A stretch of 64,000 bases of DNA, from contig NZ_JACXAJ010000005.1 in the NCBI RefSeq assembly GCF_014773225.1, forward strand, positions 1 through 64,000, written 5' to 3'. A program made the position numbers and the translations under genes. The stretch comes from Pontibacter aquaedesilientis (GTDB lineage Bacteria > Bacteroidota > Bacteroidia > Cytophagales > Hymenobacteraceae). The notes beneath the pieces were generated by a model that saw nothing but the letters and a program-made list of their open reading frames with translations, was not told the DNA's origin and ran no database searches. Of this stretch, positions 1 through 64,000 are shown piece by piece (position 1 is the stretch's first letter; each line of letters opens with the position of its first letter).

Positions 1-240
1 TTTTCAAGCTCCGAAGAGCTAATGTGTCCGTTCGACCCCGGCCTTTTCCTTTTTAATTCTCTTGAATTGACGCGGTGGGTGACTCTGCAGTCACACCCGC
101 GCGGATGTACCTATCTTGTTTTTTCTTTTCTGTCTCAACAATCTCTCAAAGAACTTTCGGAAGACTTCCTCTTCCAGTAGCGCCCCAACTTCCTGGGGCC
201 TGTCTTGCTTGCGCTCCCGTGCCGAGCGCTCCTCGTTTTC
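1..240 (-). other. Probable 5' leader of an rRNA operon running out of the window
   Basis: No coding gene is credible here. Read on the minus strand, this is the stretch between the last promoter of a tandem array (247-277) and the window edge. It contains a perfect 5-bp hairpin at 7-20 whose minus-strand loop is a UUCG tetraloop closed by C-G, and a longer imperfect hairpin at about 72-101. Stable hairpins and strong tandem promoters are typical of the leader upstream of 16S rRNA. The 16S gene itself is not in the window, so the assignment is inference. Confidence 0.5.
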
Positions 241-246
241 GGTGTG

Positions 247-277
247 CAAAGGTCGGAAAACAATTCCGAATCCACAA
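247..277 (-). promoter_or_regulatory. Tandem promoter P1 (closest to window edge)
   Basis: On the minus strand TTG is followed after 20 nt by GACCTTTG, one mismatch from the Bacteroidota -7 consensus TAnnTTTG. It is the last of five similarly built promoters, all pointing left. Confidence 0.55.
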
Positions 278-375
278 GCAAAATCTCAATCTTTTTTTCT
301 CTTTCCTCTCAACCCTTCCGGCCGATCGGCACTCTGTTTCTCTCGCCCCGGAAACCTTCGTTTCGGAGCGGGCTG

Positions 376-1078: not shown

Positions 1079-1106
1079 AGCTTTAGAAACAGATTGGTTA
1101 TCTTAT

Positions 1107-3214: not shown

Positions 3215-3245
3215 GTCTGCTCCTTATATATATAGGTATAGCTGC

Positions 3246-5489
3246 CTAGTCAAAACGCTCAACAGTCAGCACACCACTTACTTTGCCCATACGCTGGATC
3301 AATTTGTCCAGGTGGCCGGTATCATTTACAAAAACCATAATGTTACCCTCAAAGATTCCATCATGCGAATCGATCGTGATAGAGCGCATGTTCACGCGCA
3401 GACTATTTGATATGATTCGGGTCAGGTCGTTTACTAGGCCAACGCGGTCTGTACCTTTAATGCGTATACCTGCCAAGAAGGCCAACTCTTTCTGATCTGT
3501 CCACTTCGCCTTTATAATCCGGTTACCGTAGTTCGACATCAGCTCTATACCTTTCTTGCAATTGGTGCGGTGAATTTCGATACCATCTCCTTCGGTTTCA
3601 AAGCCAAACACTTCGTCGCCAGGTATAGGGTTACAGCAAGAGGCCACTTTATACGCCATGTTAGAGGTGTTCTCCCCTATTACCAGCATGTCAGAGTTCA
3701 CACCCCGTAATTTCTGAACTTCCCGATCGAAGGATTTAGGCTCCAACATGGAAGCGCCCCGTTCGGCCTGCGCCGTAAAGATCACCTCTTTTATATTTTT
3801 GATGTCGATGTGCCCGGTGGCAATGCGGTAATGCAGGTCCTGCACGGTAGGCACATTGAAGAAAGCCAGCAACTTGTTTAGGTTTCCTTGTGTCTCCGGC
3901 ACCTTCAGGTAGGACATGCGTCGCTCCAACATCACCTTCCCCTGCTCCGATTTGTTTTTACGCTCCTCCCGCAGGTATTCTTTAATGCGTGATCTTGCTT
4001 TGGAGGTTACCACATAGTCCAGCCACTCTTCGTTCGGTTTCTGCTTTTGCGAAGTAAGAATCTCTACCTGGTCTCCGTTACGAAGCCTGAAGCTCAGCGG
4101 CACCAGTTTCTGGTTAACCTTCGCACCAAGGCATTGCAGGCCAATGTGTGAATGAATCTCAAAAGCAAAGTCCAGGGCAGTGGCCCGATCCGGCAGGATG
4201 AGCAATTCGCCTTTAGGGGTAAAGACAAACACTTCCTCCACAAACAAATTTTTCCGGAACTCGTCCATGAACTCCAGGGCGTTGGCTGTATTATTCTCCA
4301 GCATATCACGCACCTTGTTGATCCAGAGTTCCAGACCAGACTCTCCGCCAGTGCCATCGCTCTTATACTTCCAGTGGGCGGCATAACCACGCTCGGCAAT
4401 TTCGTCCATACGCTTGGTGCGTATCTGCACCTCCACCCACTGACCAGACTTACTCATCACGGTCGTATGAAGTGACTCATACCCGTTGGCTTTCGGGGTG
4501 TTTACCCAGTCGCGGAGGCGATCCGGGTTCGGCTGGTAGAAGTCCGTTATGATAGAGTATACCTGCCAGCAAGCTGCCTTCTCATATTCCAGGGGCACGT
4601 CCAGTGTGATGCGGATGGCAAACAGGTCGTATATTTCCTCGAACGTGATGTTCTGTTTCTTTATCTTCTTTAATATAGAGTAAATAGACTTCGGCCTACC
4701 CTTTATATTGAATTTGAAACCATGCTGACGCAGCTCCTCCTCTATCGGTGTGATAAAATCCTTGATAAACTTACCCCGGGCAGTTCGTGTCTGCCTTATT
4801 TTGTTGGAGATGTCCTTGTAGGTTTCAGTATCGGTATACTTCAGGTATAGGTCTTCCAACTCCGACTTAATGGCATATAGCCCCAAACGATGGGCCAAGG
4901 GCGCATACAGGTACATGGTCTCCGAAGCAATCTTGAGCTGCTTGTGGCGCGGCATACTGTCGAGGGTACGCATGTTGTGCAGACGGTCGGCCAGCTTTAC
5001 GAGGATTACCCGCACGTCGTCTGACAGTGTGAGCAGCATCTTCCGGAAGTTTTCGGCCTGTTGCGAGGTACCATAATCGAACACCCCGGAGATTTTGGTG
5101 AGCCCCTCGATAATACGGGCTACGCTGGAACCGAACTCACGCTCGATCTCATCGACCTCCATGGCGGTATCTTCCACCACATCGTGCAGCAGCGCTGCCA
5201 CGATGGAGGTCGTTCCAAGGCCAATTTCCTCCACTGCGATCTGGGCAACGGCAAGCGGGTGTAGTATGTAAGGCTCTCCGGACTTACGGCGCATGTCTTT
5301 GTGCGCTTCCACGGAGGTATTAAAGGCTTTCTTGATTATCTTGGCATCATTGTCCTTCAAAAAAGGCTTTGCATGCCGGAGTAATCTGCGATAGTGTCGT
5401 AAGATCTCTTTGCGTTCTGCTTCCGGATCGATCATATCAATTTGTAAGCTAGGGGTCATTGCGTTCAGGCCCTGTGAGCCTGCAACCAT
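3246..5489 (-). CDS. rsh: Bifunctional (p)ppGpp synthetase/hydrolase (RSH)
   Basis: Makes and degrades the alarmone (p)ppGpp in the stringent response. Domains in order: HD hydrolase with the catalytic HDVVEDT near residue 102, the RelA/SpoT synthetase domain near 260-370, a TGS domain near 410-470 (FVFTPKGELLILPD), a helical/CC region including VASCCNPIPGDEVFG, and a C-terminal ACT domain. The intact HD motif argues for a SpoT/Rel-type bifunctional enzyme rather than a RelA-only synthetase. The start could be the Met at 5489, 5459 or 5435; the family begins close to EAERKEIL. It is the first gene of the operon with fur, STAS and purA. Confidence 0.96.
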   Translation of the reverse strand: MVAGSQGLNAMTPSLQIDMIDPEAERKEILRHYRRLLRHAKPFLKDNDAKIIKKAFNTSVEAHKDMRRKSGEPYILHPLAVAQIAVEEIGLGTTSIVAALLHDVVEDTAMEVDEIEREFGSSVARIIEGLTKISGVFDYGTSQQAENFRKMLLTLSDDVRVILVKLADRLHNMRTLDSMPRHKQLKIASETMYLYAPLAHRLGLYAIKSELEDLYLKYTDTETYKDISNKIRQTRTARGKFIKDFITPIEEELRQHGFKFNIKGRPKSIYSILKKIKKQNITFEEIYDLFAIRITLDVPLEYEKAACWQVYSIITDFYQPNPDRLRDWVNTPKANGYESLHTTVMSKSGQWVEVQIRTKRMDEIAERGYAAHWKYKSDGTGGESGLELWINKVRDMLENNTANALEFMDEFRKNLFVEEVFVFTPKGELLILPDRATALDFAFEIHSHIGLQCLGAKVNQKLVPLSFRLRNGDQVEILTSQKQKPNEEWLDYVVTSKARSRIKEYLREERKNKSEQGKVMLERRMSYLKVPETQGNLNKLLAFFNVPTVQDLHYRIATGHIDIKNIKEVIFTAQAERGASMLEPKSFDREVQKLRGVNSDMLVIGENTSNMAYKVASCCNPIPGDEVFGFETEGDGIEIHRTNCKKGIELMSNYGNRIIKAKWTDQKELAFLAGIRIKGTDRVGLVNDLTRIISNSLRVNMRSITIDSHDGIFEGNIMVFVNDTGHLDKLIQRMGKVSGVLTVERFD

Positions 5490-5539
5490 ACCTATGCTAC
5501 TCTTTATAAGTATAAGTTGGGTAGTGGCAGTTTAAGTTT

Positions 5540-5574
5540 CAAATATAAGTGAATATACGCTTCCATACACACAA
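5540..5574 (-). promoter_or_regulatory. Candidate promoter of the RSH operon
   Basis: Minus-strand -7 element TATATTTG (5540-5547) matches TAnnTTTG exactly. The nearest TTG lies 24 nt upstream, a little longer than the usual 19, so only the -7 part is convincing. The implied leader to the first Met is about 45 nt. Confidence 0.5.
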
Positions 5575-5680
5575 TGCACCACGATTCATGCAATTAATTG
5601 ATACTTAAACAGTAAGCGAACACATACCTGTTTCACAAACCCAAAATCGAAAAATAATCTGTTTTTTTTAGGCCCTGCTA

Positions 5681-5710
5681 TTGTTTTTAAAAATAGCGTG
5701 TGTAAATTTG
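5681..5710 (+). promoter_or_regulatory. Promoter of tRNA-Leu
   Basis: TTG (5681-5683), exactly 19 nt, then TAAATTTG (5703-5710). Full match to the Bacteroidota consensus, with the tRNA beginning 27 nt downstream. Confidence 0.8.
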
Positions 5711-5736
5711 CACCATCATTACAGACAAGCACACAT

Positions 5737-5818
5737 GCGGATGTGGCGAAATTGGTAGACGCACTAGACTTAGGATCTAGCGCTGCGAGGCATGGGGGTT
5801 CGAGTCCCTCCATCCGCA
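5737..5818 (+). tRNA. tRNA-Leu (anticodon UAG)
   Basis: An 82-nt class II tRNA. The acceptor arms GCGGATG and CATCCGC pair perfectly with discriminator A; the anticodon stem CTAGA/TCTAG encloses the loop CTTAGGA giving anticodon UAG; there is a variable arm and the T-loop GTTCGAGTC. CCA is not encoded. It has its own promoter and a terminator, and lies upstream of tig. Confidence 0.97.
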
Positions 5819-5826
5819 CACAAACG

Positions 5827-5861
5827 AAACCCTCAACAGCCCATGTTGGGGGTTTGTTTTT
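5827..5861 (+). terminator. Terminator after tRNA-Leu
   Basis: A 12-bp stem (5827-5838 with 5844-5855, one G-T pair), 5-nt loop, followed by GTTTTTT. It separates the tRNA from tig, so tig may be expressed partly by read-through. Confidence 0.75.
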
Positions 5862-5895
5862 ACTAGATGTATCATCATTAAAATTATTGTAAGCC

Positions 5896-7218
5896 TTGAA
5901 TATTACATTAAATCAAACCGACGGCACTAACGCGCAACTCAAGGTAGTTCTGGAAGAGTCAGACTATGCTCCAAAGGTTGATCAGCAAGTAAAAGAGTTC
6001 AGCAAGAAAGCCCAGATCAAAGGCTTCAGACCTGGTAAAGTGCCTGCCGGCCTTATCAAAAAGATGTATGGCAAGAGCATAATGGTTGAGGCGATCAACA
6101 AACTCCTGCAGGAGGCGATCTCCAAATATATCAAGGACAACGACGTGAAACTACTGGGCGAGCCGCTTCCGGAGCCAAGCCAGGACGCGATCGATTGGGA
6201 CAACCAGAAAGATTTCGAATTTACTTACGCTGTTGGCTTACTGCCTGCCTTCAACCTTCCGCTTGACAAAAGCGTAGAGGGATACACTATTGATGTAGAC
6301 CAGGCTACGATCGACGAGGCTTACGAAAACCTGAAGCGCCAGTTTGGCAAGACCACTAATCCGGAAACTTCTGAAGAAGGTGACTTCATTTACGGTGACC
6401 TAAAGCAGGTAGACGGTGAGTTTGAGTCTAAAACACTTATCCCGACCAACCGTATAGTTGCAGGCAAAGAGCAATTCATAGGTGTTAAAGCCGATGATAT
6501 CATCCGCTTTGATATCCGTAAGGCTTTTGGCGATGACAACGCTGCCCTGGCACACGTTACAGGCTTGAGCAAAGAAGTTGTTGCAGATCTGAATGGCGAA
6601 TTTGAGTTTACAGTTGAGAAAATCAACCGCACGGAGGCTGCTGAGCTGAACCAAGAGCTTTTTGACAAGCTGTTCGGGAAGGATGAGGTTAAGACCGAAG
6701 AGGAGTTCGACGCCAAGATCCGTGAGACGATCAAAGAAAATTACGACCGTGAGGCAGATAACCTGCTGAGCCGCAACATTATCGATACTCTTGTTGACAA
6801 TGTAGACGTAGAACTTCCTAACGAGTTCTTCAAGCGTTGGCTACAGGTGACCAACGAAGGTCGCTTGACAGCTGAGCAGATCGAGGAAAACTTCGACAAG
6901 TACCTGAAGGAGCTTAAGTGGTCTATGATCAAAAACAAGGTTGTAGAAGAGCACGAGTTGAAGGTTACAAACGAAGAGGTTGTAAACGCTACCAAAGAGA
7001 AAATGCTGGCTCAGTTTAACATGCCAGAAGTACCAGAGGAATTGGCGGAGAGCATGAACAACTATGCCAACCAATACTTGAGCCAGGACAACGGCCGTAA
7101 CTACATCAATGAGTACGAGCAACTGCTGGCCGAGAAGGTGCTCGCTAAACTTAAGGAAAAGATGACTGTTGTAGAGAAAAGCATCTCTGCAGAGGACTTC
7201 AAAAACATGTCGTTCTAG
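5896..7218 (+). CDS. tig: Trigger factor, ribosome-associated chaperone
   Basis: Binds the ribosome near the peptide exit and shields nascent chains; also a peptidyl-prolyl isomerase in many bacteria. The N-terminal ribosome-binding signature is present (KGFRPGKVPAGLIKKMYGKS, residues about 43-62), followed by a diverged FKBP-like middle part and a long helical C-terminal part. 440 residues is normal. The start is TTG at 5896 giving MNITLNQTDG, which matches the family N-terminus; no ATG lies closer that keeps the conserved beginning. The clpP and clpX genes follow, the classic tig-clpP-clpX order linking folding and proteolysis. A strong terminator follows tig. Confidence 0.95.
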   Translation: MNITLNQTDGTNAQLKVVLEESDYAPKVDQQVKEFSKKAQIKGFRPGKVPAGLIKKMYGKSIMVEAINKLLQEAISKYIKDNDVKLLGEPLPEPSQDAIDWDNQKDFEFTYAVGLLPAFNLPLDKSVEGYTIDVDQATIDEAYENLKRQFGKTTNPETSEEGDFIYGDLKQVDGEFESKTLIPTNRIVAGKEQFIGVKADDIIRFDIRKAFGDDNAALAHVTGLSKEVVADLNGEFEFTVEKINRTEAAELNQELFDKLFGKDEVKTEEEFDAKIRETIKENYDREADNLLSRNIIDTLVDNVDVELPNEFFKRWLQVTNEGRLTAEQIEENFDKYLKELKWSMIKNKVVEEHELKVTNEEVVNATKEKMLAQFNMPEVPEELAESMNNYANQYLSQDNGRNYINEYEQLLAEKVLAKLKEKMTVVEKSISAEDFKNMSF

Positions 7219-7241
7219 AAACGCATAAATAATATTTAAGC

Positions 7242-7274
7242 AAAAAAGTCCTTTATTTTTTAAAGGACTTTTTT
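7242..7274 (+). terminator. Terminator after tig
   Basis: Stem AAAAAAGTCCTTTA / TAAAGGACTTTTTT with a short T-rich loop and a T run on the 3' side. Right after it TATTTTTG (7274-7281) could serve as the -7 element for clpP, though no TTG sits at the expected distance. Confidence 0.85.
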
Positions 7275-7304
7275 ATTTTTGACCAAACCGTAAATCTAAA
7301 CAAG

Positions 7305-8006
7305 ATGATGTTTAACAAAGACGAGTTCCGGAAATTTGCCGTAAAGGGCCAAGGTATGAGTGGCCTGGGCGTAGATCAATATATCAGTCATGTAGAAGGC
7401 CGGGCGATGCATACCATTGAGAGTATGACCCGTTCTGTAATTGAGGAGCGCCCTACGAATTTCCGTGAGATTGACGTATTCTCACGCCTGATCATGGATA
7501 GAATCATTTTCCTGGGCACTCAGGTAGATGATTTTATCGCCAACATTATCACAGCCCAGCTGCTGTTCCTAGAGTCTGCCGACGCCAAGAAGGACATACT
7601 ACTCTATATCAATAGCCCAGGTGGTTCAGTATATGCTGGCTTGGGTATTTATGACACCATGCAGTATGTGAATCCGGATGTGGCCACCATCTGTACTGGC
7701 CTTGCCGCTTCAATGGGTGCCGTACTTTTGGCAGGTGGAGCTAAGAACAAGCGCTCTGCCCTACCGCATGCCCGCGTGATGATTCACCAGCCAATGGGTG
7801 GTACACAGGGACAGGCTTCTGATATCGAGATCACCGCGCGTGAAATCCTGAAGCTGAAGAAGGAACTTTATGAAATTCTGGCTGAGCACTCCGGCAAATC
7901 ATATCAGGACATTTACGATAACTCTGACCGTGACTACTGGATGAAAGCCGAAGAAGCAAAAGAGTACGGCCTGATCGATGAAGTATTGCACCGCAAGAAA
8001 GAGTAA
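7305..8006 (+). CDS. clpP: ATP-dependent Clp protease proteolytic subunit
   Basis: Serine peptidase that forms the tetradecameric barrel fed by ClpX. The catalytic serine lies in [11 protein letters not shown], the histidine in HARVMIHQP, and the third residue is the aspartate of the downstream DRDYWM segment. The oxyanion-loop region [10 protein letters not shown] is intact. The 233 residues include an N-terminal extension of about 30 residues before the conserved core, possibly a propeptide. The start is one of two consecutive ATG codons at 7305/7308. It lies between tig and clpX, but both borders carry terminators, so it is probably its own transcription unit. Confidence 0.97.
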
Positions 8007-8044
8007 GTAACTGATAATCAACGGGCACTTGTCGCTCTATCAAC

Positions 8045-8076
8045 AAAACCCGCATCAGCTAACTGGTGCGGGTTTT
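8045..8076 (+). terminator. Terminator after clpP
   Basis: 12-bp stem (AAAACCCGCATC / GGTGCGGGTTTT, one T-G pair) with an 8-nt loop, 39 bp downstream of the stop. Confidence 0.85.
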
Positions 8077-8369
8077 GCTATTAATTTAAATGTAAAAAAT
8101 TGCACCATAACCACTTCGGTGTTCGTAAGATAAAATTTGTGCAAAAATTTATCAACAGTACGCTGTGGAAACACCATCATTGCAAGATATTGATAATCAG
8201 TTATTTAAATTAAAATAAACGAATAGCAATTTTTTAATTTATGGTTACTTTTTATAACCATATCAACATTAGTGCGCTGAAAATAATACATCAATAAAGT
8301 TTCAATTTTGTACCTTTGCTTTTGTATAAGATCAATTGAGAGTCTTAGAATCTTCTGAACAAACTTTTT
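8077..8369 (+). promoter_or_regulatory. AT-rich clpX upstream region with a -7-like element
   Basis: No gene is visible. TACCTTTG at 8311-8318 matches the Bacteroidota -7 consensus and would give a leader of about 45 nt for clpX, but I find no TTG at the normal distance upstream. The remainder is plain AT-rich sequence. Confidence 0.4.
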
Positions 8370-9593
8370 ATGGCTGAAATAACTTGCTCCTTCTGCGGCA
8401 AAAACAAAAAAGACGTATCTGTGATGATATCCGGTATAAACGCGCACATCTGTGACCGTTGCATCGGACAAGCTCAGCAAATTCTGAACGAGGAGAATAA
8501 AATACGCGCCAACAGCCGCACGCCAAAATTCAACCTAATGAAACCCAAGCAGATGAAGGAATACCTTGATCAGTTTGTGGTGGGGCAAGACAATGCGAAA
8601 AAGGTTATGTCGGTGGCAGTATACAACCACTACAAGCGCCTTATGCAGCGCAGCAATGAGGATGATGTGATGATCGAAAAGTCAAACATCATTATGGTAG
8701 GCGAAACTGGAACCGGCAAAACATACTTGGCTCGGATGATGGCTGGTATTCTGCAGGTGCCATTTTGTATCGCTGACGCTACCGTACTGACAGAAGCAGG
8801 CTATGTAGGCGAAGACGTAGAGAGTATCCTGACCAGATTGTTGCAGGCAGCTGACTACAACGTAGAAGCAGCGGAGCGTGGCATTGTGTATATCGACGAG
8901 ATTGACAAGATTGCCCGTAAGAGCGATAACCCGTCGATAACCCGCGATGTGAGCGGCGAAGGTGTACAGCAGGCTTTGCTTAAACTGTTGGAAGGTACCG
9001 TGGTAAACGTTCCGCCACAAGGCGGGCGTAAGCACCCGGAGCAGAAAATGATTACTGTAAACACGGAGAATATCCTCTTCATCTGCGGTGGCGCTTTTGT
9101 AGGTATAGATCGTTTGATCAAAAACCGTTTGAACACACGACCAATCGGCTTCTCCAAATCGAAGCAGGACGAGACAGAAGAGAAAGAAAACTTCCTGAAG
9201 TACCTGACGGCACAGGATCTGAAAAACTTCGGCTTGATTCCGGAATTGATCGGTCGTTTGCCAGTGCTCACCCACCTCGATCCATTGGATAAGGAAACGC
9301 TGCGCCTCATTCTTCTAGAGCCAAAGAACTCTATTGTGAAGCAGTACAAGCGCCTGTTCGAGATGGAAAACATCAGCCTGTCGTTTGATGACGATGCACT
9401 GGATTACATTGTGGAGAAAGCGGCCGAATATAAGTTAGGAGCTCGTGGCTTACGCTCTATCTGCGAAGGCATCATGACCGACGCCATGTTTGAGCTACCA
9501 TCCGATGAAGGGGCAAAAGAACTGTTGATCACCGGCGAATATGCCCGTGAAAAATTTGACAAGTCCCCTTTGAAGCAGTTGCGTGTTGCCTAA
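8370..9593 (+). CDS. clpX: ClpX ATPase subunit of Clp protease
   Basis: AAA+ unfoldase that recognises substrates and threads them into ClpP. The N-terminal zinc finger is complete (CSFCGKN near residue 6, CDRC near residue 28). The Walker A motif is GETGTGKT, Walker B is [11 protein letters not shown], and the GYVGEDVE pore-loop region and the ARGLRSI sensor 2 segment are present. 407 residues is standard. It lies 363 bp downstream of clpP, separated by a terminator, and converges on lpxB across a shared 25-bp hairpin. Confidence 0.97.
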
Positions 9594-9653: not shown

Positions 9654-9719
9654 TCCTCCAAGGTATAGGTATACCTACACAAGCTATGGACAGGTAGCGA
9701 CCTGCTCCCTCAAAATTTC

Positions 9720-11336: not shown

Positions 11337-12344
11337 CTAACTACTAAACTTATAATTCTTTCGAGACAGCAAATATACGAAGAAAGGAACACCAAAGAAC
11401 GAAGTAATGATTCCAATTGGCAACCCTGCCGGCGGATACAAAATACGGGAAAGCAAATCGCACAAAAGCATAAAAAAACCACCCACGAAAGCACAGAAAA
11501 GCAGGTTGCTCCGGCCGGTGGTCCCCATCAGACCCCGGGTAACGTGCGGAATGATCAGCCCGACAAAACCGATAGGCCCAGAGGTAGCCACGGCAAAACC
11601 GGTTACGATGGAAACAGTAGCCAATATGGCCCAGCGCGTTTGTGCTACCGGCACACCCAGTGCCTGCGCACGGTCTGCCCCGAGTAACAGTATATTGAGT
11701 TGCTTTTGCAGGAAAGCAAAAAGCAGAAGCGCAACGAGCAGGGCTGTGGCAGGGTATGGCAAAACAGTCCAGCTGGCTCTTTCGAAGCTTCCCATCGACC
11801 AGAAAATAACTGACTTGAGTTTGCCCTCTGAATCCGATAAAAAGGTGAGCAGACCGACAACGGCTGTCATGAGGGAACTGATGGCTATACCTGCCAGCAG
11901 CAGTTGCGCAGGTATAAGCTGCCGTTTGCGGTAACCGAGAATCACCACGACGAGTGTCACGACAAAGGCCCCCGCTAAAGCAAAGACCGGTGGCATGTAG
12001 ATGCCGGCCACTGTCATTTCTACAAAACCGAAAAAAACGATGACGGCTCCGAGCGAAGCACCTGAGGCAGTGCCCAGCAGGTAGGGGTCGGCCAAGCCGT
12101 TGTTGACCATGGCCTGCATCAGGTAACCACAGAACGCCAGTGAAGCCCCGACCACCAAGGCCAGCAAAAGCCGGGGCAGACGCAGGTGCACAATGGCGTA
12201 GTGTGTATTATTGTCCGGGTCGTACTGGGTGAAGGCTTGCCCGATGGTAGCCAGATCGGCTTCGAATGAGCCTACCTGCAAACCCAGCAGCAGCGCCGCC
12301 AGAATAAGCACGAAAGCTACCAGAAAGTAAAGTGCCCTGCTCAT
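11337..12344 (-). CDS. FecCD-family ABC transporter permease
   Basis: Inner-membrane permease of the BtuC/FecCD/FhuB family, which import cobalamin, heme or ferric siderophores. About ten hydrophobic segments are visible in 335 residues, together with the characteristic motifs LRLPRLLLALVVGASLA near the N-terminus, GASLGAVI, and GFVGLIIPHVTR, which contacts the ATPase. The start overlaps the stop of the binding-protein gene by four bases (ATGA). No ATP-binding subunit gene lies in or next to this cluster, so the ATPase must be encoded elsewhere. Confidence 0.92.
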   Translation of the reverse strand: MSRALYFLVAFVLILAALLLGLQVGSFEADLATIGQAFTQYDPDNNTHYAIVHLRLPRLLLALVVGASLAFCGYLMQAMVNNGLADPYLLGTASGASLGAVIVFFGFVEMTVAGIYMPPVFALAGAFVVTLVVVILGYRKRQLIPAQLLLAGIAISSLMTAVVGLLTFLSDSEGKLKSVIFWSMGSFERASWTVLPYPATALLVALLLFAFLQKQLNILLLGADRAQALGVPVAQTRWAILATVSIVTGFAVATSGPIGFVGLIIPHVTRGLMGTTGRSNLLFCAFVGGFFMLLCDLLSRILYPPAGLPIGIITSFFGVPFFVYLLSRKNYKFSS

Positions 12345-14311: not shown

Positions 14312-14352
14312 ATAGTATTGATTTTGCTGGATAAAAATTCGGCAGGTATAGC

Positions 14353-50855: not shown

Positions 50856-50897
50856 AAACAGCGTCGCCCTACCAGGTATAGCAGAGTGACGCTGTTT
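50856..50897 (-). terminator. Terminator after the M14 peptidase gene
   Basis: 10-bp stem AAACAGCGTC / GACGCTGTTT with a 22-nt loop that contains the word AGGTATA, then a T-rich minus-strand tail. Confidence 0.75.
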
Positions 50898-55366: not shown

Positions 55367-58300
55367 CTATTGTTTGAGCAATTTGAAATGATTGGTGAAG
55401 TCGCCCATACGGGTGGAGATGATGTAGATACCCCGTGGCAGATTCGGGTCTAGCACAAGTTTCTCTACGTTAGCCCCCTTCTCTACCTTGATGGTGCGCT
55501 GCAGCAACTGCTGGCCTGTGGCATTGGTCACCGTCACGAGCACGTCTCCCTTTCCTTCAGCGTCAATGCTGAGTTCCACTTCGGATTCGAACGGGTTTGG
55601 GTAGGCCTTCACTTTGTTCATGGTTACCTCGCCGAAGCTCACAGCCTTGGTGCTGAAGTACTCGAACTGACCGTCCAGATCTACCTGCTTGAGTCTGTAG
55701 TAACGCGTACCGTGTTTGCCGTTTTCCTTGTCTACGAAGGTATAGACCTGCTTGAGGCTAGTCGTTTGCACTTTCGACTCCACAAAGCCCAGGCTGCGGA
55801 AGTTTTTCGCATCGGTTGACACCTGCACCTCAAAGCCTTTGTTGTCCTGCTCGGAGGCCGTTGCCCACTCCATGGCCACGTCGTTGCCGCGCTTCATGGC
55901 TTTGAAGTAGATCAACTCTACCGGAAGCGGAACGATAGCTTCGGTGCTTAGAGAGAAGGCGCGATCAGCCAGCAGCGAATAGCAGGTACCCGGATTCTTA
56001 GGGATATCGCACCTGATAGAAACCTTTAGCGTACCCATAGGTTCTGTCATTTTATATTCAGTTCCACCGGTTTGCTTGAGCACCCAACCGCTTTCAGAGC
56101 CATCTCCCATGTACCACTCGATCGCGGAAACGTTGGCGTCATTGTTGTCCAGAATATTCGACTGCACTTTAAAGGTATACTTCTCCCCGGATTTCATATT
56201 CCTAGGATCCATCACCTGCACACCGTTTTCATCATAGATGAGTATGTCGCCGGTTGCTTGTATGACAGGGTTGATTGTCACCGTGCTGGTTTGTGTTACG
56301 CTCTCACAAGCCTGGCTGTCTGTTACCCGCACGGTATATTGCCCAGCTACAGTAGTTTCAAAGCTGGCAACGTTACCTGGATTAGCTACACCATTCGGCA
56401 CAACCCAACTATAGGTATAATTGCCTGAGCCATTGTTTGTCGTTGCTGTTACAGTCGCCGACATGCTTTCGCAGGCCGCAGGGCTGTTTACTGTGACTAC
56501 TGGCATTGGGTTAACTGTCAGCAGGGCTACCTCCGATGTTATAGGCGGGAAGCATGTACCCGCTACCAACACCGTGTAATTGCCTGCGGTCTGGTTGTTG
56601 GCTACCGGCACCGTGTAAGTGCTGGCTCTGGCCCCGGATATAGCAGCTCCGTTTCGATACCACTGGTAGGTAATGCCCGCACCCGTGGCAACCACACTAA
56701 AGCTTACGTTCTCTCTTCCCTCACAAACCGTAACCGATTCAGGATCTGCCGTGATCTGTGGCGCTGTATTCACGGTAAGAGCTGCCACTGCAGATGTTTC
56801 GCCAAGAGGGGAACATGTACCTTTTACAACAACTCTATAGTTGCCCGCATCGGCTGGCTGCACATTGTTCAAGGTTAGTATTCTGCTATTCGCACCACTA
56901 ATGTTAGCCCCGTTCTTCTGCCATTGGTATGTTAAGCCAGTTCCGACTGCATCTACGCTGAATGTGGCTGTTTCTCCGGCACATACAACATCTGCCACTG
57001 GCTGTGTTTGTATTTCCGGGGCGGTATCGACTGTGAGCAATGCACCCAGCGTCGTTACAGGAGTGCCACACGTCCCGGAAACTGTCACGGTATAGTTACC
57101 TGCGTCTGCCCGGTTCACATTGCTGATGGTATAGCTACTAGAGGTTGCACCTGTTATCGGGTCTCCGTTTTTACGCCACACATAGGACAGACCTGTGCCA
57201 GTGGCTCCTACACTAAAGGATGCCGACTGCCCCTCGCATACCGTTACCGGTTGAGGAGCCGCTGTGATGGCAGGAGGCGTATTCACGGTCAGCGCCACGG
57301 CATTAGAGGTTTGCGACGGCGAACAAGTGCCCGACACAATAACCCGATAGTTGCCTGCGTCAGAAGTCTGCACACTGGTCAGAGTTAGTGTATTGCTTGT
57401 TGCACCGGTAATGTTGCCCCCGTTTTTCTGCCACTGATACGTTACACCCGTGCCTGAAGCGGCTACACTAAAACTGGCGGTTCCGCCCACACAGGCCTGC
57501 GCAGCAGTGGGCTGCGTCGTAATCGCTGGCAGGGTATTGATGATAAGAGTAGCTACTGAGGAGGTCAGTATGCCACAGTTTCCAGTTGCTCTTACCGTGT
57601 AGTCGCCGGCATCGCCTGCCACGGCATTGCTGATGGTATAGGAGGAGCCGGTGGCCCCGTTAATGGCCACACCATTTTTCAACCATTGGTAGGTGACATT
57701 GGTACCGGTGGCGGTGGCATTAAAGGTATGGCTTGCGCCTGGGCATATTGCACCACCCACAGGCTGCACCGTCATGACAGTAACCGGGTTAATGGTGAGC
57801 TGCGCATTGACTGATGTAACAGGCGATGGACAAACACCACTCACAATTACATAGTAGTTACCGGCGTCACCTGCTTGCGCATTGTCAAAGGTCAACGTAG
57901 CTGTAGTAGCGCCTGAGATTCTTCCATTGTTTGCCACAGCTGTACCATTACCAGTTGTAGATGAACCCGGGCGCTTGTACCACTGGTAGGTAAGACCTGT
58001 TCCTGTGGCTCCTACCGTCAGCGTGGCTGTCGAGTTCGCGCAGAAGGCTCGGTCAGATGGCTGCGTGGCAATGACTGGTGGCTGGTTCACCACCATGGTG
58101 ACGAAGCTTCCCTGGTCTCCGGAGGTCAGACATTTTACCACATCTGTCTGGAAGTGGATAGAAATCACATCCCCGTTTTCTATCATACCCGGAGCCACAT
58201 TATACTCATACACAGCTGGGCTGGAGCCAGGAACAGGTTGTGTAACCGGCTGACCCGGATTCAGGACCACAGGAGGTTCCTCTGCAGGAGAGTTCGCTTT

Positions 58301-61300
58301 TTTGATGTAGAAGTACAGTTCCAGGTTGACGTTCGAGAAGTTGAAATTCACGTTTGGAGTTGCTGTTAGCTTGGTGCCTTGCCCTGCGCAAATAGGGTTA
58401 GTTGCCGTAAGCGTGAAGCTGTAGTTTGCTGGGGTACTTATCCATAGGCTGTTGGACCGCAGGGCAGCTGAACTTCCTGTACAGTATAATGGATTCTTAG
58501 GTGTTGCCAAGACCCAAAACTCATCAGTAGCAGACAAACCTGCCTGTCTTGTAGTCACCCTGTCATTACCCAGCGCAGTGCCATTTTTGTACCACTGATA
58601 GTCGAACAAGTTACTTGAGCTCTTGTCCACGTCATCCGGGTTCATGATCAAACTGGCGGGTGCGGGCTGCAGCTTGCCGTTTGCATCCAGTGGTAACACT
58701 CCTACAAAAGGCTGCCAGTATCTAAACGCTTCATCTCTTCTGAGCGCATTGGGTTCTGTAAACCATTCGTTGTAGCTTGGGTGTCTTGTATCTGTTACAG
58801 GCACCACAATAACATCCCGATAAACAATAGCTCTATACTCTGTATTCTGGCCTTTACAGATCGGGAAAGGCGTGGCAAAGTTTACAGCGGTATAGGTAGT
58901 TTTCTTAAGTGTAACTGACTTGTCAGCGGTAGAGGTACAGGCGTTTCCTCCACTACCTGACGTCACCGTATAGCGAATGGTAATGGTTTTCTCGTCAGCG
59001 GTGCCAAGTGCTGTGCATGGGTTGAGCACACCTCCAGAACTCATGCCGCTAGTGCCCGCAGGCGAAGCAATCGAGAATGATCCGCCTGTGGTTCCGGTAG
59101 GTGTAAGGGTAATATTACCGCTAGCAGAATATATGGTCTGCCCTTCAGTTACTCCTGTGAAGGAAGCCACCGGAGTAGGATTAACCCGGACTACCACCTC
59201 CTGTGTGTTGGGAGGACAACCATTGGCTGTCATTGTGATGCTGTATGTGACATTTGTAAAGCTGGAGCTGGTGCTGGTCAGCGTTTCGTTAATTGTAGGT
59301 GTCGAGCCGCTGGACGTAGCACCTCCATTAATGGCTGCATTTGCTTGTCGCACCCAGCTGAAAGTCGTGTTCGCCGTGGCACTGGTGGCCGTGTAGCTGA
59401 AGATGTTCCCGCTACAGATAGCCGCCGGTGTGAGTGTGCTGCTCAGTTTAGGGGTCGGGTTGACGCGCACCACCACATCCTGTATGTTGGTGCAGCCGTT
59501 GGCTGTCAAGGTATAGCGGTAAGTCACGTTCGCTGGTGCAGTGCCTGAGTTGGTCAGCACTTGGTTGCCCGTGCCAGCCGCAGTGCCGCTGGCCGCGCCG
59601 GTGGCTGTGACGCCCGTCGGCAGCGTCTGCCGCGCCCAGCTGAAGGTGGTATTCAACGTGGCGCTGGAGGCCGTGTAACTGAAGGTATCCCCGCTACAGA
59701 TAGCTGCCGGCGTGAGCGTGCTGCTCAGCACAGGCGTTGGGTTCACCGTCACCACCACGTCCTGCGTGTTGGTGCAGCCGTTGGCTGTCAAGGTATAGCG
59801 GTAAGTCACGTTCGCCGGTGCAGTGCCTGAGTTGGTCAGCACTTGGTTGCCCGTGCCAGCCGCAGTGCCGCTGGCCGCGCCGGTGGCTGTGACGCCCGTC
59901 GGCAGCGTCTGCCGCGCCCAGCTGAAGGTGGTGGTCGCCGTGGCGCTGGTGGCCGTGTAGCTGAAGGTGACCCCGCTGCAGATGGCCGGCGTGAGCGTGC
60001 TGTTCAGCACAGGCGTTGGGTTGACGCGCACTACTACATCTTGGGTGTTGGTGCAACCGTTGGCTGTCAAGGTATAGGTATAGGTCACGTTCACCGGGGC
60101 TGCTGTGGTGTTGGTTAGCGCATGGCTCACACTGGCCGTCGAGCCCGAGGACGGGGCCGTGGTCGTGATGCCCGCGGCAGACTGGCGCACCCAGCTGAAA
60201 GTGGTGCCCGATGTGGCGCTGGTGGCCGTGTAATCGAAGTTAGTGCCGCTGCAGATGGCTGCTGGCGTGCGGTTACTGCTCAGTACCAGTTCCGGTCTAA
60301 CAGTTACTGTTACTTCATCGCTTGTGCTAACGCACTGCCCTACACTTGCCAGTCGTCTATAAACCGTTGTTTCAGTAAGATTGCCAGGCGTATAGTTCTC
60401 ACCTGTTCCGCCTGTAGCCACATTGGCAAAGGCAGCGCTCCCGGTTTTAAATTGCCACTGATAAAGCACAGCCTCACCAGGTATATCCGAAGTAGCTGGG
60501 CTGCCATCCAATTCTTCTGGCGTGGCACCGTAGCATATGGTCTGGGTTCCACTGATGATGTTGTTGTCTACAACGGTCGAGCCGACATTGATTGTTGAGG
60601 AAGTGCTTATACAGCCGTTTCCGTCTGTCACTTCAACATAGTAATTGCCGGTTTGATCGACGTCAAATAAACGTGCAAGACCTACAGGATTTGTATTCCC
60701 CACTCTATACCATGTATAGCTATAGTTTGACCCAGTCTTGGCTGACAGTGTAATTACATCACCCGGGCAGAAATAGGTTTGGGTACCCTGCTCTATCTCT
60801 GCTACTGGAGGTGCCGTAACGGTAACAGATACAGTACCAGATACGCTGGTACAATAGCCCGATGTAACCGTACGTCTGTAAAGAGTGGTCGTGTTAGTTG
60901 TAACTGTTTTGGGAGTCGGGGTATAATCTGCTTCGTTGTTAGTGCCTTCTGCTGCAGTCCAGGAGCTGGCTGACCCTGTCGGACTCTGCTCCCACAGGTA
61001 GGTAACATCCCCAGCCTGACCTCCAGAGAAAGTTCCTGTCAGTTTGCTGATCGTAGCACCCGAACATACGCTTCCACCGCCTGAAATCGTGTTGACGATG
61101 GTAGGTGTTACCTCAACGGCAACAGGATCGCTTGTATTCGTACAACCACCGCCCGCTATCGTTCTTCTATAGTATGTCGTGCCACCCGAAGCTGTGGAAG
61201 GTGAATAATTCGCCAAATTGTTGGTGCCTGCAGCGGCTGTCCAGTTGCCTGTGCCTGAAGGGCTCTGCTCCCACAGATAGGAAATGCTCGCACTGCCTCC

Positions 61301-63037
61301 GCCTGTCACAGTTCCTCCTACAAGTGAAGCCGTAGCATTCTGGCAGTAGTTCAGGGTGCCAGAGATAGCGCCCTGCCCAAGCGTAGGCGTCACAGTGATG
61401 TTAACAGCCTCCGACTGTTTGGAGCAACCTTCAGCTGAAGTGACAGTAACGCGGTAACTACCCGTTGCATTGGCGGTATAGGTGCTTGAAGTACCTACTT
61501 CTGTAGAACCATTGAACCACTGGTAGGTATAGCCTGTGCCGGTAGTTGCCGAAAGTACCAGTTCGCTACCTTCACAGAAAGTTGTTGCGCCTGTGTATGT
61601 TATCTCAGCATTAGGTGTCTGGTTGACGGTTATATCTCTTGAGGTGCTTGTTCTAACACCACAGGCGTTTGTTGCAGTAACCGTTATTCTAACAGGAGCT
61701 ACCGGCGCTGTTGCATTAAATGCTATGCTAGCAGAGTTAGCCGAAGACGAAGCAATGGTAGCACCTTCGCCAATCTGCCATAGGTAACTAGTAAATCCTG
61801 TAGGAACAGTGTAAGTCAGCGTTTGTCCTGAGCATGCTGTTGAGTTGCCGGAGATGGTTGCGTTTGCAAAGTTTGGCCTTATCGTTAATGTTTGACCATC
61901 TGAAACCTTACTGTCTGGAGGGCCGGGGTTCAGGACTGTAATCGTTCTGGTGCCAGCTGTCTGCACATCGGCAGCAGTCAGGCTAACCGTCAATTGGTTG
62001 GCATTGTTGAAAACCGTTGTTCTAGATGTTCCATCTACCCGCGCTACTGCATTTCGGTCGAAGTTTGATCCGGACAAGACCAATGTCTGCGCTCCAGAGC
62101 CCTCGGTAATACAAGCTGTAATGGCATTAAGTGTAGGTGTTACACTGTTGATATTGAATGCATTGCTTGCAACAGATGTAAAACCACTACTAGAGGCCAC
62201 TAAAGTATAGCCAGTGCCTGCTGCATTGATACTGAGGCCTGAAAATGTAGCAACACCGCTTACTGCATTGACTGTTGTTGTGCCACTTAGTGTACCGTTG
62301 CTTCCTACTGGGTTATTTCCGATCGCGATAGAAACCGACGCCGTTGATCCAGAGCCTGTCGTAACTATGTTGCCAAACTGGTCTTGGAATCTAACAGCAG
62401 GTGCAATTGATGTGTAAATGTCAGTGTTGGTAGGCTGTTGGGTAAAGACTATTTGCCTGGCAGCACCGTGGGTCATTGTAAGATTAGCTACTGCTGTATT
62501 TAACCCTAAGCCGGCTATGTTTGGATTTCCTTCTATAAAAACACTACTCGTTGACGGCAACGCCACAGCACCAGATATAGGCTGTACTTCAATCCCGCTA
62601 ATAGTTACAACATCTATGCTATTACTATTAGAAATTCCACTCAATGAAAAGGTCAGGGTTTTCCGGTCGGGAGAGAGCACTGGCCGGAAAGCAGTCGTTG
62701 GAATATTCCCTCCCGGACTAGCTACAAATGCTACAGTTGTCTGACTATTGGAGTTGAATTGCCAATTGCCCGAAGTTTTAATTATAAAGTTATAGCTGCC
62801 ATTGTTAAAATCTTTACCATTCTGTTCTCTGATAACTACATTACCTATTGAAACATAAGATGGTGAAATAGCATTAGCTGCCTGATCCACTGTGGCACTT
62901 CTATCAACTGCCGTAATAGGCTGTATATCTGCGTACAAATACAGAGAACCAGCCAGAATCATCAGGCTGGTGAGGGCGATTAAAAACTTTTTAGATTGAA
63001 TGAGACCATTAATCAATTGCGTAAAATTCTTTTTCAT
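55367..63037 (-). CDS. Giant Ig/PKD-repeat surface protein with type IX secretion sorting domain
   Basis: Exported multi-domain protein of about 2556 residues from the Met at 63037 (MKKNFTQLINGLIQSKKFLIALTS); the ORF Met at 63070 would add 11 residues. Domains from the N-terminus: signal peptide, a TIG/IPT-like domain coded near 61930-62150, several Ser/Thr/Gly-rich beta domains, four PKD-like repeats (each starting with a TPxxICSG pattern) coded near 59200-60300, a unique segment at 58100-58900, six Ig-like repeats coded at 56500-58080 (each with a QWxKNG/RNG turn), and a C-terminal type A T9SS sorting domain (AYPNPFESEVELSI ... NLPRGIYIISTR ... HFKLLKQ). Likely an adhesin or surface matrix protein. 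Two of its repeats are almost identical in DNA. Confidence 0.9.
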   Translation of the reverse strand: MKKNFTQLINGLIQSKKFLIALTSLMILAGSLYLYADIQPITAVDRSATVDQAANAISPSYVSIGNVVIREQNGKDFNNGSYNFIIKTSGNWQFNSNSQTTVAFVASPGGNIPTTAFRPVLSPDRKTLTFSLSGISNSNSIDVVTISGIEVQPISGAVALPSTSSVFIEGNPNIAGLGLNTAVANLTMTHGAARQIVFTQQPTNTDIYTSIAPAVRFQDQFGNIVTTGSGSTASVSIAIGNNPVGSNGTLSGTTTVNAVSGVATFSGLSINAAGTGYTLVASSSGFTSVASNAFNINSVTPTLNAITACITEGSGAQTLVLSGSNFDRNAVARVDGTSRTTVFNNANQLTVSLTAADVQTAGTRTITVLNPGPPDSKVSDGQTLTIRPNFANATISGNSTACSGQTLTYTVPTGFTSYLWQIGEGATIASSSANSASIAFNATAPVAPVRITVTATNACGVRTSTSRDITVNQTPNAEITYTGATTFCEGSELVLSATTGTGYTYQWFNGSTEVGTSSTYTANATGSYRVTVTSAEGCSKQSEAVNITVTPTLGQGAISGTLNYCQNATASLVGGTVTGGGSASISYLWEQSPSGTGNWTAAAGTNNLANYSPSTASGGTTYYRRTIAGGGCTNTSDPVAVEVTPTIVNTISGGGSVCSGATISKLTGTFSGGQAGDVTYLWEQSPTGSASSWTAAEGTNNEADYTPTPKTVTTNTTTLYRRTVTSGYCTSVSGTVSVTVTAPPVAEIEQGTQTYFCPGDVITLSAKTGSNYSYTWYRVGNTNPVGLARLFDVDQTGNYYVEVTDGNGCISTSSTINVGSTVVDNNIISGTQTICYGATPEELDGSPATSDIPGEAVLYQWQFKTGSAAFANVATGGTGENYTPGNLTETTVYRRLASVGQCVSTSDEVTVTVRPELVLSSNRTPAAICSGTNFDYTATSATSGTTFSWVRQSAAGITTTAPSSGSTASVSHALTNTTAAPVNVTYTYTLTANGCTNTQDVVVRVNPTPVLNSTLTPAICSGVTFSYTATSATATTTFSWARQTLPTGVTATGAASGTAAGTGNQVLTNSGTAPANVTYRYTLTANGCTNTQDVVVTVNPTPVLSSTLTPAAICSGDTFSYTASSATLNTTFSWARQTLPTGVTATGAASGTAAGTGNQVLTNSGTAPANVTYRYTLTANGCTNIQDVVVRVNPTPKLSSTLTPAAICSGNIFSYTATSATANTTFSWVRQANAAINGGATSSGSTPTINETLTSTSSSFTNVTYSITMTANGCPPNTQEVVVRVNPTPVASFTGVTEGQTIYSASGNITLTPTGTTGGSFSIASPAGTSGMSSGGVLNPCTALGTADEKTITIRYTVTSGSGGNACTSTADKSVTLKKTTYTAVNFATPFPICKGQNTEYRAIVYRDVIVVPVTDTRHPSYNEWFTEPNALRRDEAFRYWQPFVGVLPLDANGKLQPAPASLIMNPDDVDKSSSNLFDYQWYKNGTALGNDRVTTRQAGLSATDEFWVLATPKNPLYCTGSSAALRSNSLWISTPANYSFTLTATNPICAGQGTKLTATPNVNFNFSNVNLELYFYIKKANSPAEEPPVVLNPGQPVTQPVPGSSPAVYEYNVAPGMIENGDVISIHFQTDVVKCLTSGDQGSFVTMVVNQPPVIATQPSDRAFCANSTATLTVGATGTGLTYQWYKRPGSSTTGNGTAVANNGRISGATTATLTFDNAQAGDAGNYYVIVSGVCPSPVTSVNAQLTINPVTVMTVQPVGGAICPGASHTFNATATGTNVTYQWLKNGVAINGATGSSYTISNAVAGDAGDYTVRATGNCGILTSSVATLIINTLPAITTQPTAAQACVGGTASFSVAASGTGVTYQWQKNGGNITGATSNTLTLTSVQTSDAGNYRVIVSGTCSPSQTSNAVALTVNTPPAITAAPQPVTVCEGQSASFSVGATGTGLSYVWRKNGDPITGATSSSYTISNVNRADAGNYTVTVSGTCGTPVTTLGALLTVDTAPEIQTQPVADVVCAGETATFSVDAVGTGLTYQWQKNGANISGANSRILTLNNVQPADAGNYRVVVKGTCSPLGETSAVAALTVNTAPQITADPESVTVCEGRENVSFSVVATGAGITYQWYRNGAAISGARASTYTVPVANNQTAGNYTVLVAGTCFPPITSEVALLTVNPMPVVTVNSPAACESMSATVTATTNNGSGNYTYSWVVPNGVANPGNVASFETTVAGQYTVRVTDSQACESVTQTSTVTINPVIQATGDILIYDENGVQVMDPRNMKSGEKYTFKVQSNILDNNDANVSAIEWYMGDGSESGWVLKQTGGTEYKMTEPMGTLKVSIRCDIPKNPGTCYSLLADRAFSLSTEAIVPLPVELIYFKAMKRGNDVAMEWATASEQDNKGFEVQVSTDAKNFRSLGFVESKVQTTSLKQVYTFVDKENGKHGTRYYRLKQVDLDGQFEYFSTKAVSFGEVTMNKVKAYPNPFESEVELSIDAEGKGDVLVTVTNATGQQLLQRTIKVEKGANVEKLVLDPNLPRGIYIISTRMGDFTNHFKLLKQ
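59486..59932 (-). repeat. Near-identical tandem 282-bp repeats inside the giant gene
   Basis: Positions 59486-59650 and 59768-59932 match over 165 bp with one difference that I could see (T at 59534 against C at 59816). The period is 282 bp (94 codons). A third, more diverged copy starts near 60048. Codes for the PKD-like domains. Confidence 0.9.
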
Positions 63038-63070
63038 ACACTGTAGGGTTAAGATGGGATTCGGGCGCAC

Positions 63071-63866
63071 GCTATTAGGGTTTGTGTGCTTGTTTTCCGT
63101 TTCAAAAAGGCAAAAGGAGTCATGCGAAGGCTCAAAGGGAGCTTCGGGGAGGAGTTAAGCCTTTGGTTCGGGCTTCAAATCAAAAAAGCAGCTAACTGAC
63201 ACCTATAAGGCACAGACTGCCAGGCTTTATTAGTCTGGAGGATAGAAAGGAGAACCGTCATAACAGACCTGTGCAAGTCGAAAAAGGCTGGCTCGTTCTT
63301 CCTTATGGCTGTAAGTCGACATATCGGCTAAAAGTCTCACGTTATATATGACTGCAACTGTATACTTCCTAGCCTATAATTACCTTTAATAAGTATAAAA
63401 GTTTCATACTTAAGGTATAATCTTATTAAATTATTATAAATTATTATACTTTATTTCATAATTATCACACAAAGTATTGCATCCAACCAATATAAAATTA
63501 TCCCTGTATAATTTCTAACATGCCACCCGATTAGGCCTTATATTGCTATGTGCCTATGTTTTAAGGTAAAATGATTCTGAGACCCGAATTCAAAATTGCA
63601 CTGAATAACCACTTGTTTCACAGCCTGTCAGCTTTTTGACCTTGTGTTTTATTAAGAGAAAATACCATCCCATTTTGCCTTGTGCTGTTACCAGGCAGAC
63701 ACAATTTCATTGGCTAACCTGCTTCACGAAAGCCGCTTACCAACCGTTTTGGAGAAGCTCTTATACACCTGCTAAGTAGCGTGTTAACTTACTCCAATAA
63801 CCTGTTTCAAATTGTTGCAGCAACCCGGGTATTTACTTACTTTTAGGTTTCTATATCTGTGCCATT
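63071..63866. other. Long AT-rich intergenic region before the PepSY gene
   Basis: About 800 bp without a gene. The right part (63380-63560) is very AT-rich, with a small AAGTAT/ATACTT stem at 63391-63411. I could not find a consensus promoter for either the giant gene (minus) or the PepSY gene (plus); TATATCTG at 63852-63859 is one mismatch from the -7 element. Confidence 0.4.
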
Positions 63867-64000
63867 ATGAAAAGGAAAACTCATCTTCGGGTTCGCAAGA
63901 CCCATCGCTACCTGGGACTGATCACAGGTATACAGTTCGTTATGTGGACCATTGGCGGACTCTATTTCAGCTGGAGCGATATGGATGAGATACACGGCGA
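63867..64000 (+). CDS. PepSY domain-containing membrane protein (partial, N-terminus)
   Basis: Only the first 44 codons lie in the window; the gene runs out on the right. The translation starts MKRKTHLRVRKTHRYLGLI, continues through one hydrophobic segment (GLITGIQFVMWTIGGLYF) and ends in SWSDMDEIHG. The HRYLGLITGIQFVMWTIGGLYFSW pattern is the usual N-terminal span of PepSY-associated membrane proteins of Bacteroidota, often linked to iron uptake and reductases. The ATG at 63867 is the only reasonable start. Domains beyond the first span cannot be seen. Confidence 0.7.
   Translation, partial: MKRKTHLRVRKTHRYLGLITGIQFVMWTIGGLYFSWSDMDEIHG

Follow-up and report, generated by a model that had tools for sequence, protein, structure and literature searches.

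A TATA-centred chromosomal word with lineage dialects in Pontibacter and its possible role as a DNA uptake tag

The first 64,000 nucleotides of contig NZ_JACXAJ010000005.1 of Pontibacter aquaedesilientis (the whole stretch analyzed here, hereafter the window) repeat one short word, AGGTATA, far more often than expected, within genes and between them. What process would fill a chromosome with such a word, and what would read it? A sequence-only reading of the window had likened the word to the uptake signals of Neisseria and Pasteurellaceae or, alternatively, to HIP1 of cyanobacteria. We find that the word is real, genus-wide, and old, that it comes in related dialects, two of which replace each other at orthologous places, and that, by inference, it is under trans control. 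With somewhat better than even confidence, we take it to be a self-recognition tag working like the DNA uptake sequence (DUS) of Neisseriaceae or the uptake signal sequence (USS) of Pasteurellaceae.

Abundance of the word in the window and the genome

AGGTATA occurs exactly 87 times in the window (50 copies on the forward strand and 37 on the reverse), whereas 100 dinucleotide-preserving shuffles gave 5.5 on average and never more than 12; the sequence-only reading had put the number at about 80–85 against 8–9 at random. No other 7-mer is as overabundant at Markov orders 2 and 3, and at order 4 only its own shifted form, GGTATAG, exceeds it; the order-4 expectation of 37 for AGGTATA comes from a model trained on the window itself, so that the motif inflates the expectation. 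The 8-mer AGGTATAG, present 48 times versus 8.7 expected at order 4, ranks first among 8-mers at all three orders, and the 9-mer AGGTATAGC has 19 copies. The extended consensus drawn from the copies is cAGGTATAGc.

The excess extends to the whole genome (G000; 4,117,105 bases in 18 contigs), which contains 1,882 copies of AGGTATAGC (967 and 915 on the two strands) versus 28 (15 and 13) of the reversed 9-mer; the claim of overabundance thus survives a genome-wide count. Reading frames and intergenic positions were analyzed in the window and 17 other stretches of G000 holding 316 predicted genes, with stretches L014–L016 left out. Inside predicted genes, 452 copies were counted versus 50.1 from synonymous-codon shuffles (1.36 per kb), with all six frames enriched, and 145 copies lie between predicted genes versus 16.3 expected at Markov order 2. 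At 2.31 per kb, the word is denser between genes than inside them, and the enrichment is not one of codon pairs within genes alone. The excess of all six frames over synonymous-codon shuffles, together with the intergenic excess, indicates that neither codon use nor composition explains the copies. Similarly, a related word described below, AACTATAG, is found 556 times versus 12.9 expected in 400 kb of a second Pontibacter genome, G030.

The density of the 7-mer is about one copy per 0.3–0.8 kb, and the gaps between copies are over-dispersed (coefficient of variation 1.09–1.53), which rules out even spacing. Terminator-like inverted pairs were likewise rejected as the arrangement of copies: head-to-head pairs are mainly overlaps offset by 3 bp, with no strong excess otherwise. 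In G030 (16 of the 20 stretches L149–L168), 98 head-to-head copies at the 3-bp offset form the palindrome AACTATAGTT, against ~113 neighbours of any kind expected within 40 bp; the palindromic ACTATAGT is counted 138 times versus 4.3 expected and is a minority beside the 556 copies of AACTATAG. This analysis of spacing and pairs was made without L009 and L013–L016 of G000 and without the motif-poor stretches L160, L162, L163, and L165 of G030.

Orientation was measured against GC skew, L013–L016 not being in the counts. Copies on the G-rich and C-rich strands number 515/508 in G030, 248/246 in G021, and 294/290 in G000, i.e., fractions of 0.503, 0.502, and 0.503; the word has no replication polarity.

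Dialects, anatomy, and in-place switching

Among 505 priA loci, the best 80, each taken with flanks of up to 10 kb, were used for de novo word counts; the PriA protein of the window and that of an uncultured Pontibacter share 98% identity over 842 columns. Across Pontibacter priA loci, three related words were found, AGGTATAG, AACTATAG, and AAGTATAA, with letters swapped at the same places and pooled observed-to-expected ratios (O/E) at order 2 of 29.8, 43.7, and 23.2, respectively. The window belongs to the AGGTATAG group, with isolate 912, FD36, HSC-36F09, ramchanderi, HSC-14F20, indicus, roseus, lucknowensis, amylolyticus, and virosus. AACTATAG marks the loci of Tf4, burrus, fetidus, and populi, and AAGTATAA marks 14 loci (isolate 905, aydingkolensis, chinhatensis, mangrovi, isolate 4-1420, litorisediminis, 172403-2, oryzae, flavimaris, ruber, mucosus, cellulosilyticus, anaerobius, and vulgaris). 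The locus of isolate 903 carries AACTATA and AAGTATA side by side, E15-1 has a weak GGGTATA/GGTATGG word, and harenae a weak AAGTATA.

The logos of the three words are TATA-centred, with information gone beyond ~10 bp, and read cAGGTATAGc, cAACTATAGc, and aAAGTATAAa for AGGTATAG, AACTATAG, and AAGTATAA, respectively. Logos, one-off counts, and the decay test discussed below were made without L013–L016 of G000, and logos also without L009. In all three words, one-off variants at the central positions 4–6 reach 0 to 2.5 times expectation, and those at the edges up to 6.6 (position 1), 6.7 (position 7), and 13.4 (position 8) times expectation. AGGTATAG and AAGTATAA are also strict at positions 2–3, where variants stay within 2.4 times expectation; AACTATAG is lax at position 2, with values up to 7.9.

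Conservation and switching were followed in blastn alignments between priA loci, whose comparisons are not independent of one another (L041, L046, and L085 fall in no group, and L033 in no dialect count). Within its dialect, AGGTATA is kept at 2,492 of 3,705 places, versus 4,793 of 14,482 for words of the same composition. Towards AAGTATAA species, it becomes AAGTATA at 456 of 2,230 places (20%), versus 973 of 35,183 (2.8%) for the same G-to-A change in random words, a seven-fold effect over control, and it stays unchanged at only 99 of 2,230, versus 6,203 of 35,183 control words. At the window locus, 20 distinct sites were aligned, six of which switch to AAGTATA in at least one AAGTATAA species. 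The clearest switch in the window lies within priA (46584–46590, forward strand), where AAGTATA stands in 14 of 14 aligned AAGTATAA-dialect loci; another copy (44393–44399, reverse strand) is AAGTATA in four of five. AACTATA becomes AAGTATA at 29 of 799 places versus 53 of 9,293 in the control. Gaps at copies are found at 188 of 3,705 places within the dialect and 207 of 2,230 towards AAGTATAA species, most copies aligning ungapped to other words; towards motif-poor loci, AGGTATA is kept at 12 of 778 places. The simplest cause of the switching is a trans-acting reader whose taste has changed.

To place these dialects in the genus, each of 50 genomes was classed by one 9-mer per dialect at a cut-off of 200 per Mb. 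Thirty-six lie above it (9 for AGGTATAGC, 22 for AAGTATAAA, and 5 for AACTATAGC), AGGTATAGC having been counted in 37 of the 50. Association tests compare these 36 positive genomes with nine low ones, among them G069, placed there from its count of the joint pattern ARSTATARC; G059, G063, G064, G067, and G068 were set aside. Three genomes, G026, G032, and G065, hold a second word at about 180–260 per Mb. In the count of ARSTATARC, 15 of the 18 Pontibacter genomes drawn are high, G024 is at about twice its control, and G025 and G069 are near control. Of the 372 genomes of the same order outside the genus, all stay below the high Pontibacter genomes per Mb, as judged by eye, and a few small ones are at 2–3 times control.

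In a PriA protein tree, built from this single gene and with 10 of 38 inner branches drawn open, the AGGTATAG species form one clade (100/97), and the AACTATAG species form another with the mixed isolate 903 (100/100). AAGTATAA is scattered over vulgaris, ruber, 172403-2, and a weakly supported group of 11; thus, it is probably the ancestral word. Species without a clear word occupy at least three places (beigongshangensis/qinzhouensis/Botryobacter; silvestris; and ummariensis and pamirensis with diazotrophicus); the word thus seems to have been lost repeatedly within the genus. About 90–100 kb of each of the motif-poor genomes G025, G027, G023, and G002 held no comparable substitute word, the strongest words in these genomes being AATAATT (53 versus 11.3, G025) and CCTGCTC (75 versus 20.4, G027); G002 retains faint AGGTATA (48 versus 19.2) and AACTATA (28 versus 8.9). 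The median genome size is 5.6 Mb for the nine motif-low genomes and 4.6 Mb for the 36 positive ones (Mann–Whitney P = 4e-5, uncorrected for kinship); larger motif-low genomes would fit weaker self-filtering or curing, a difference that is only suggestive.

Placement of copies in the window and in unusual DNA

On the forward strand of the window, AGGTATAGC stands between two open reading frames (ORFs) at 3234–3242, 14344–14352, 42997–43005, and 50874–50882, upstream of priA at 45486–45494, and also at 13237–13245, 20613–20621, 27425–27433, 28018–28026, 53373–53381, 59509–59517, 59791–59799, and 61525–61533. The reverse-strand copies are at 11884–11892, 23166–23174, 32959–32967, 36897–36905, 45226–45234, and 49618–49626. 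Five positions given earlier for the longer form were off by at most four bases, the actual starts being 14344, 28018, 42997, 45486, and 50874. Of three inverted pairs proposed at the same time, two are exact, namely AGGTATAGGTATACCT at 9661–9676, which consists of three overlapping copies (9661 and 9667 forward, 9670 reverse), and AGGTATACCCTATACCT at 45547–45563, directly upstream of priA; the third, AGGTATAGCCATACCT at 45486–45501, begins with the AGGTATAGC copy upstream of priA as its first arm and has one mismatch in the second arm. The palindrome TTCCGGAA is overabundant at several places in the window (18 double-strand counts versus 2.5–5.0). The tig gene, said to be poor in copies, has none, as do clpP, lpxB, and the COX1 gene, and clpX has one; a copy-free 4.25 kb (4850–9100) spans tig, clpP, and the first 60% of clpX. 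The reverse strand at 55367–63070 encodes a 2,567-residue protein with Ig-like and PKD-like repeats, whose C-terminal match to Por_Secre_tail is slightly below the cut-off.

Some foreign or otherwise special stretches of G000 and G030 are poor in copies. The relaxase-bearing L009 has three in 20 kb, L163, which carries a C5-methylase gene and was read as a defence island, has five, and L165, an RHS-type array, has six. The G030 stretch L162, read by eye as a ribosomal-protein cluster, contains 13 copies of AACTATA in 20 kb, and 15 of 20 stretches contain 49–82. L013 (G000 contig C7, 13,339 bases, low GC, with integrase and resolvase genes) is a counter-example, in which AGGTATA is clustered at 338–925 and 11480–11737, near both ends, often as the overlapping palindrome AGGTATACCT; L013 may be a mobile element exploiting the word or may hold unrelated repeats.

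Other words are overabundant at priA loci of other genera. In Hymenobacter, CTACCCC/CCCTACC stands out in L058, L060, and L070 (CTACCCC 31 versus 2.4 in L070), palindromic CCTAGG words in L071, L073, and L079 (CCCTAGG 35 versus 3.1 in L079), and GGGGCCC in L077 and L099 (65 versus 9.7 in L077). Adhaeribacter rhizoryzae (L056) has AAATATT (61 versus 17.2), and the family may hold several unrelated iterated words. The 33% GC locus of Arcicella rosea (L101) has GGCGTAGC (8 versus 0.1 expected).

Candidate readers of the word

To our knowledge, only Neisseriaceae and Pasteurellaceae have a described DUS or USS, and in both the reader is a type IV pilin, shown or predicted. In Neisseriaceae, the DUS receptor ComP is a type IV minor pilin. 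The USS of Pasteurellaceae is an overabundant short word, flanked by T-rich tracts and tied to a preference for self DNA; its receptor has reportedly been predicted in one study (PMC12616744). HIP1 is palindromic and linked to methyltransferases. Like the DUS of Neisseriaceae, the Pontibacter word is an asymmetric word of about 10–12 bp with thousands of copies and a common core with lineage dialects; unlike it, the word has a TATA core instead of CTG, belongs to a different phylum, and is found in a genus where none of the 50 genomes searched has a full-length match to a type IV pilus or type II secretion system (T2SS) ATPase. The word shares overabundance and shortness with the USS, but its logos show no flanking T-rich tracts. 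Frye et al. (PMC3630211) describe Neisseriaceae dialects with a shared core and two dialects in one genome, that of S. muelleri; G026, G032, and G065, and isolate 903 judged by its locus, similarly have two dialects at once. In ComP–DUS recognition, one study (PMC3868556) finds inner bases essential and peripheral ones less important, and the Pontibacter word is likewise strict at inner bases and lax at outer ones.

A system within the same phylum is that of Riemerella (Flavobacteriaceae), whose transformation, according to PMC8459023, needs ComEC, DprA, ComF, RecA, and four proteins unlike known machineries, one of them an HHH protein. ComEC, DprA, and an HHH protein are found in both Riemerella and Pontibacter, and the Pontibacter HHH protein recalls the one required there. 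PMC7965970 states that R. columbina prefers its own DNA in competition and lists candidate repeated words that are A/T-rich and only a few-fold above composition; unlike in Pontibacter, dialects are not reported in the section consulted. TonB effects are treated in PMC8383284.

In the genus, comEC (PF03772) and dprA (PF02481) both have a match in 50 of 50 genomes, with stops flagged for each in G009 and G021 only; the chance of both genes breaking in the same pair of genomes is 1 in 1,225. The comEC frame of G017 has 561 residues with no stop flagged, other unbroken frames being about 700–736. A ComEA-like gene is present in 49 of 50 genomes among the matches listed (in G000, a Pfam match at L208:9109–10062); its product has 304–346 residues, HHH_3 repeats, and, as judged by eye, a membrane stretch at the N-terminus. 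The gene adjoins the same three genes in seven of seven neighbourhoods, whole in six and as a 96-residue remnant amid intact neighbours in G021. Most species appear to have maintained the set of comEC, dprA, and the HHH gene; G021 has lost it as a whole, and G009 has lost at least comEC and dprA. In both of these word-keeping genomes comEC is in pieces (L205 in G021, L206 in G009), and a DDE transposase ORF lies beside the G009 pieces. At 231 per Mb, G021 has the lowest word density among the 36 positives; G019, with no comEC or dprA stop flagged, has 261 per Mb. As a sign of decay of the word after competence was lost, core one-off transitions were counted; those in G021 number 358 versus 274 expected, and those in the pool 244 versus 184, so the excess is no clearer in G021.

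A DUF5689 lipoprotein, considered as a receptor like Riemerella RS04920, was rejected. It has a PF18942 match in 22 of 50 genomes and none in G000, and in six neighbourhoods its gene has SusC-like and SusD-like ORFs next to it, the surroundings being nutrient-type loci of two different kinds; these labels come from ORF sizes, order, and N-termini, with no family search. In the DUF5689 alignment, L107 and L116 (2 of 12 ORFs) are on the wrong strand, and their rows are without meaning. A gene near the HHH gene, missing in the motif-poor neighbourhoods L211 and L212, was identified as an S9-like hydrolase.

Which of the competing explanations can account for these observations? Biased codon use or composition, or a small mobile repeat, has nothing in its favour except overlap with isoleucine/tyrosine codons; the codon shuffles, the intergenic excess, and the gap-free alignment of most copies to other words in relatives refute this explanation and leave it practically no probability. 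A Chi-like site or an FtsK-orienting polar sequence (KOPS), read by AddAB/RecBCD or FtsK, would also be short, asymmetric, overabundant, and lineage-specific, but the near-equal strand counts in three genomes refute it as the main cause, and we regard it as very improbable. Less easily dismissed, albeit unlikely, is a binding site for a non-polar protein of chromosome maintenance or repair, such as a nucleoid organiser or a recombination or mismatch-repair factor. Any DNA-binding protein whose specificity changes slowly would fit the spread over the core genome, the conservation, and the clade dialects, and motif-poor species have retained their competence genes; however, single-site effects would need selection at thousands of sites, and the repeated loss of the word in the genus argues against an essential function. 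We know of no maintenance or repair system with thousands of non-polar, dialect-forming sites.

The likeness to HIP1, an alternative in the sequence-only reading, fits less well than the likeness to uptake signals. Such a word would be built up by a DNA methyltransferase and methylation-directed mismatch repair, without uptake. HIP1 is a genome-wide, highly iterated octamer, and Elhai's ratchet model also yields lax edges (both from PMC4390886); the Pontibacter word is genome-wide at a similar density and spread across genes and gaps, and some Hymenobacter loci have palindromic words. Against this, the word is asymmetric, whereas HIP1 and its relatives are palindromic, it switches dialects in place, and it follows neither of the two methyltransferase families tested: Eco57I-type PF07669 (best E ≤ 1e-20) is found in 19 of 36 positive versus three of nine low genomes, any match to N6_N4_Mtase (PF01555) in 23 of 36 versus five of nine, with no association for either, and in eight positive genomes PF07669 matches of this strength and PF01555 matches of any kind are both missing. 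Whole clades, moreover, inherit dialects, which would be unlike the turnover expected of restriction–modification genes. We consider a HIP1-like origin improbable.

The uptake half of the earlier comparison is the best supported: the word is asymmetric, ~10 bp long, and non-polar, has a strict centre, lax edges, and in-place dialects, and accompanies retained comEC, dprA, and ComEA-like genes, a set of traits that would suit a self-recognition tag. Several observations weigh against such a tag. The motif-poor G025, G027, G023, and G002 keep comEC, dprA, and the HHH gene, and since motif-poor genomes retain them, these genes alone do not predict the word. G009, with comEC and dprA broken, has the word at full strength (O/E 24.6) and no decay. 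No full-length pilus or T2SS ATPase was found in the 50 genomes, up to 31 candidates per genome having been scored and PF00437 giving only ~60-residue P-loop matches (three barely above the cut-off), in a search that did not extend to pilins or secretin; the pilus route of known DUS and USS thus seems absent. No receptor for the word was found, the DUF5689 lipoprotein having been rejected as a candidate, and L013 holds 18 clustered copies. The reverse switch, AAGTATA to AACTATA, is weak (29 of 798 versus 61 of 11,677 in the control), and switching between the derived dialects is rare, AGGTATA places in AACTATA-dialect species reading AACTATA at 9 of 624 and AAGTATA at 68 of 624.

If the word is an uptake tag, a trans-acting DNA-binding receptor would favour DNA with ~10 bp around a TATA core, and free DNA of the same lineage would be taken up and recombined more often, so that copies would build up chromosome-wide, on both strands, in genes and gaps, and would be lost only slowly. 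A shift in the preference of the receptor would leave old copies one or two mutations from the new word, to be rewritten in place as dialects. We infer that the word is read by a DNA uptake receptor on the cell surface other than a type IV minor pilin, and Pontibacter would then be transformable. We know of no report of Pontibacter transformation, and among the matches listed in the open-licence literature, none beyond those on Riemerella dealt with transformation or an uptake word, whether in Pontibacter, in Hymenobacter, or in Bacteroidota at large. We do not class the word as a DUS because the known pilus route seems absent and the uptake role is putative. It is an even call whether Bacteroidota have a DUS of their own, i.e., a TATA-centred tag in Pontibacter with at least three dialects, two of them rewriting each other in place, and a non-pilus surface receptor, which would amount to a further origin of self-DNA tagging, without type IV pili.

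If true, a dialect-forming tag would give a handle on the DNA importer in the outer membrane of Bacteroidota, in which transformation takes a different route; the receptor would be expected to vary along with the dialect, and motif-poor species should either lack it or carry it in altered form. The idea is testable in this genus, which combines three dialects, species of mixed dialect, several losses of the word, and many cultured members. Even if it does not serve as an uptake tag, the word would still be an unexplained self-propagating chromosomal word under trans control.

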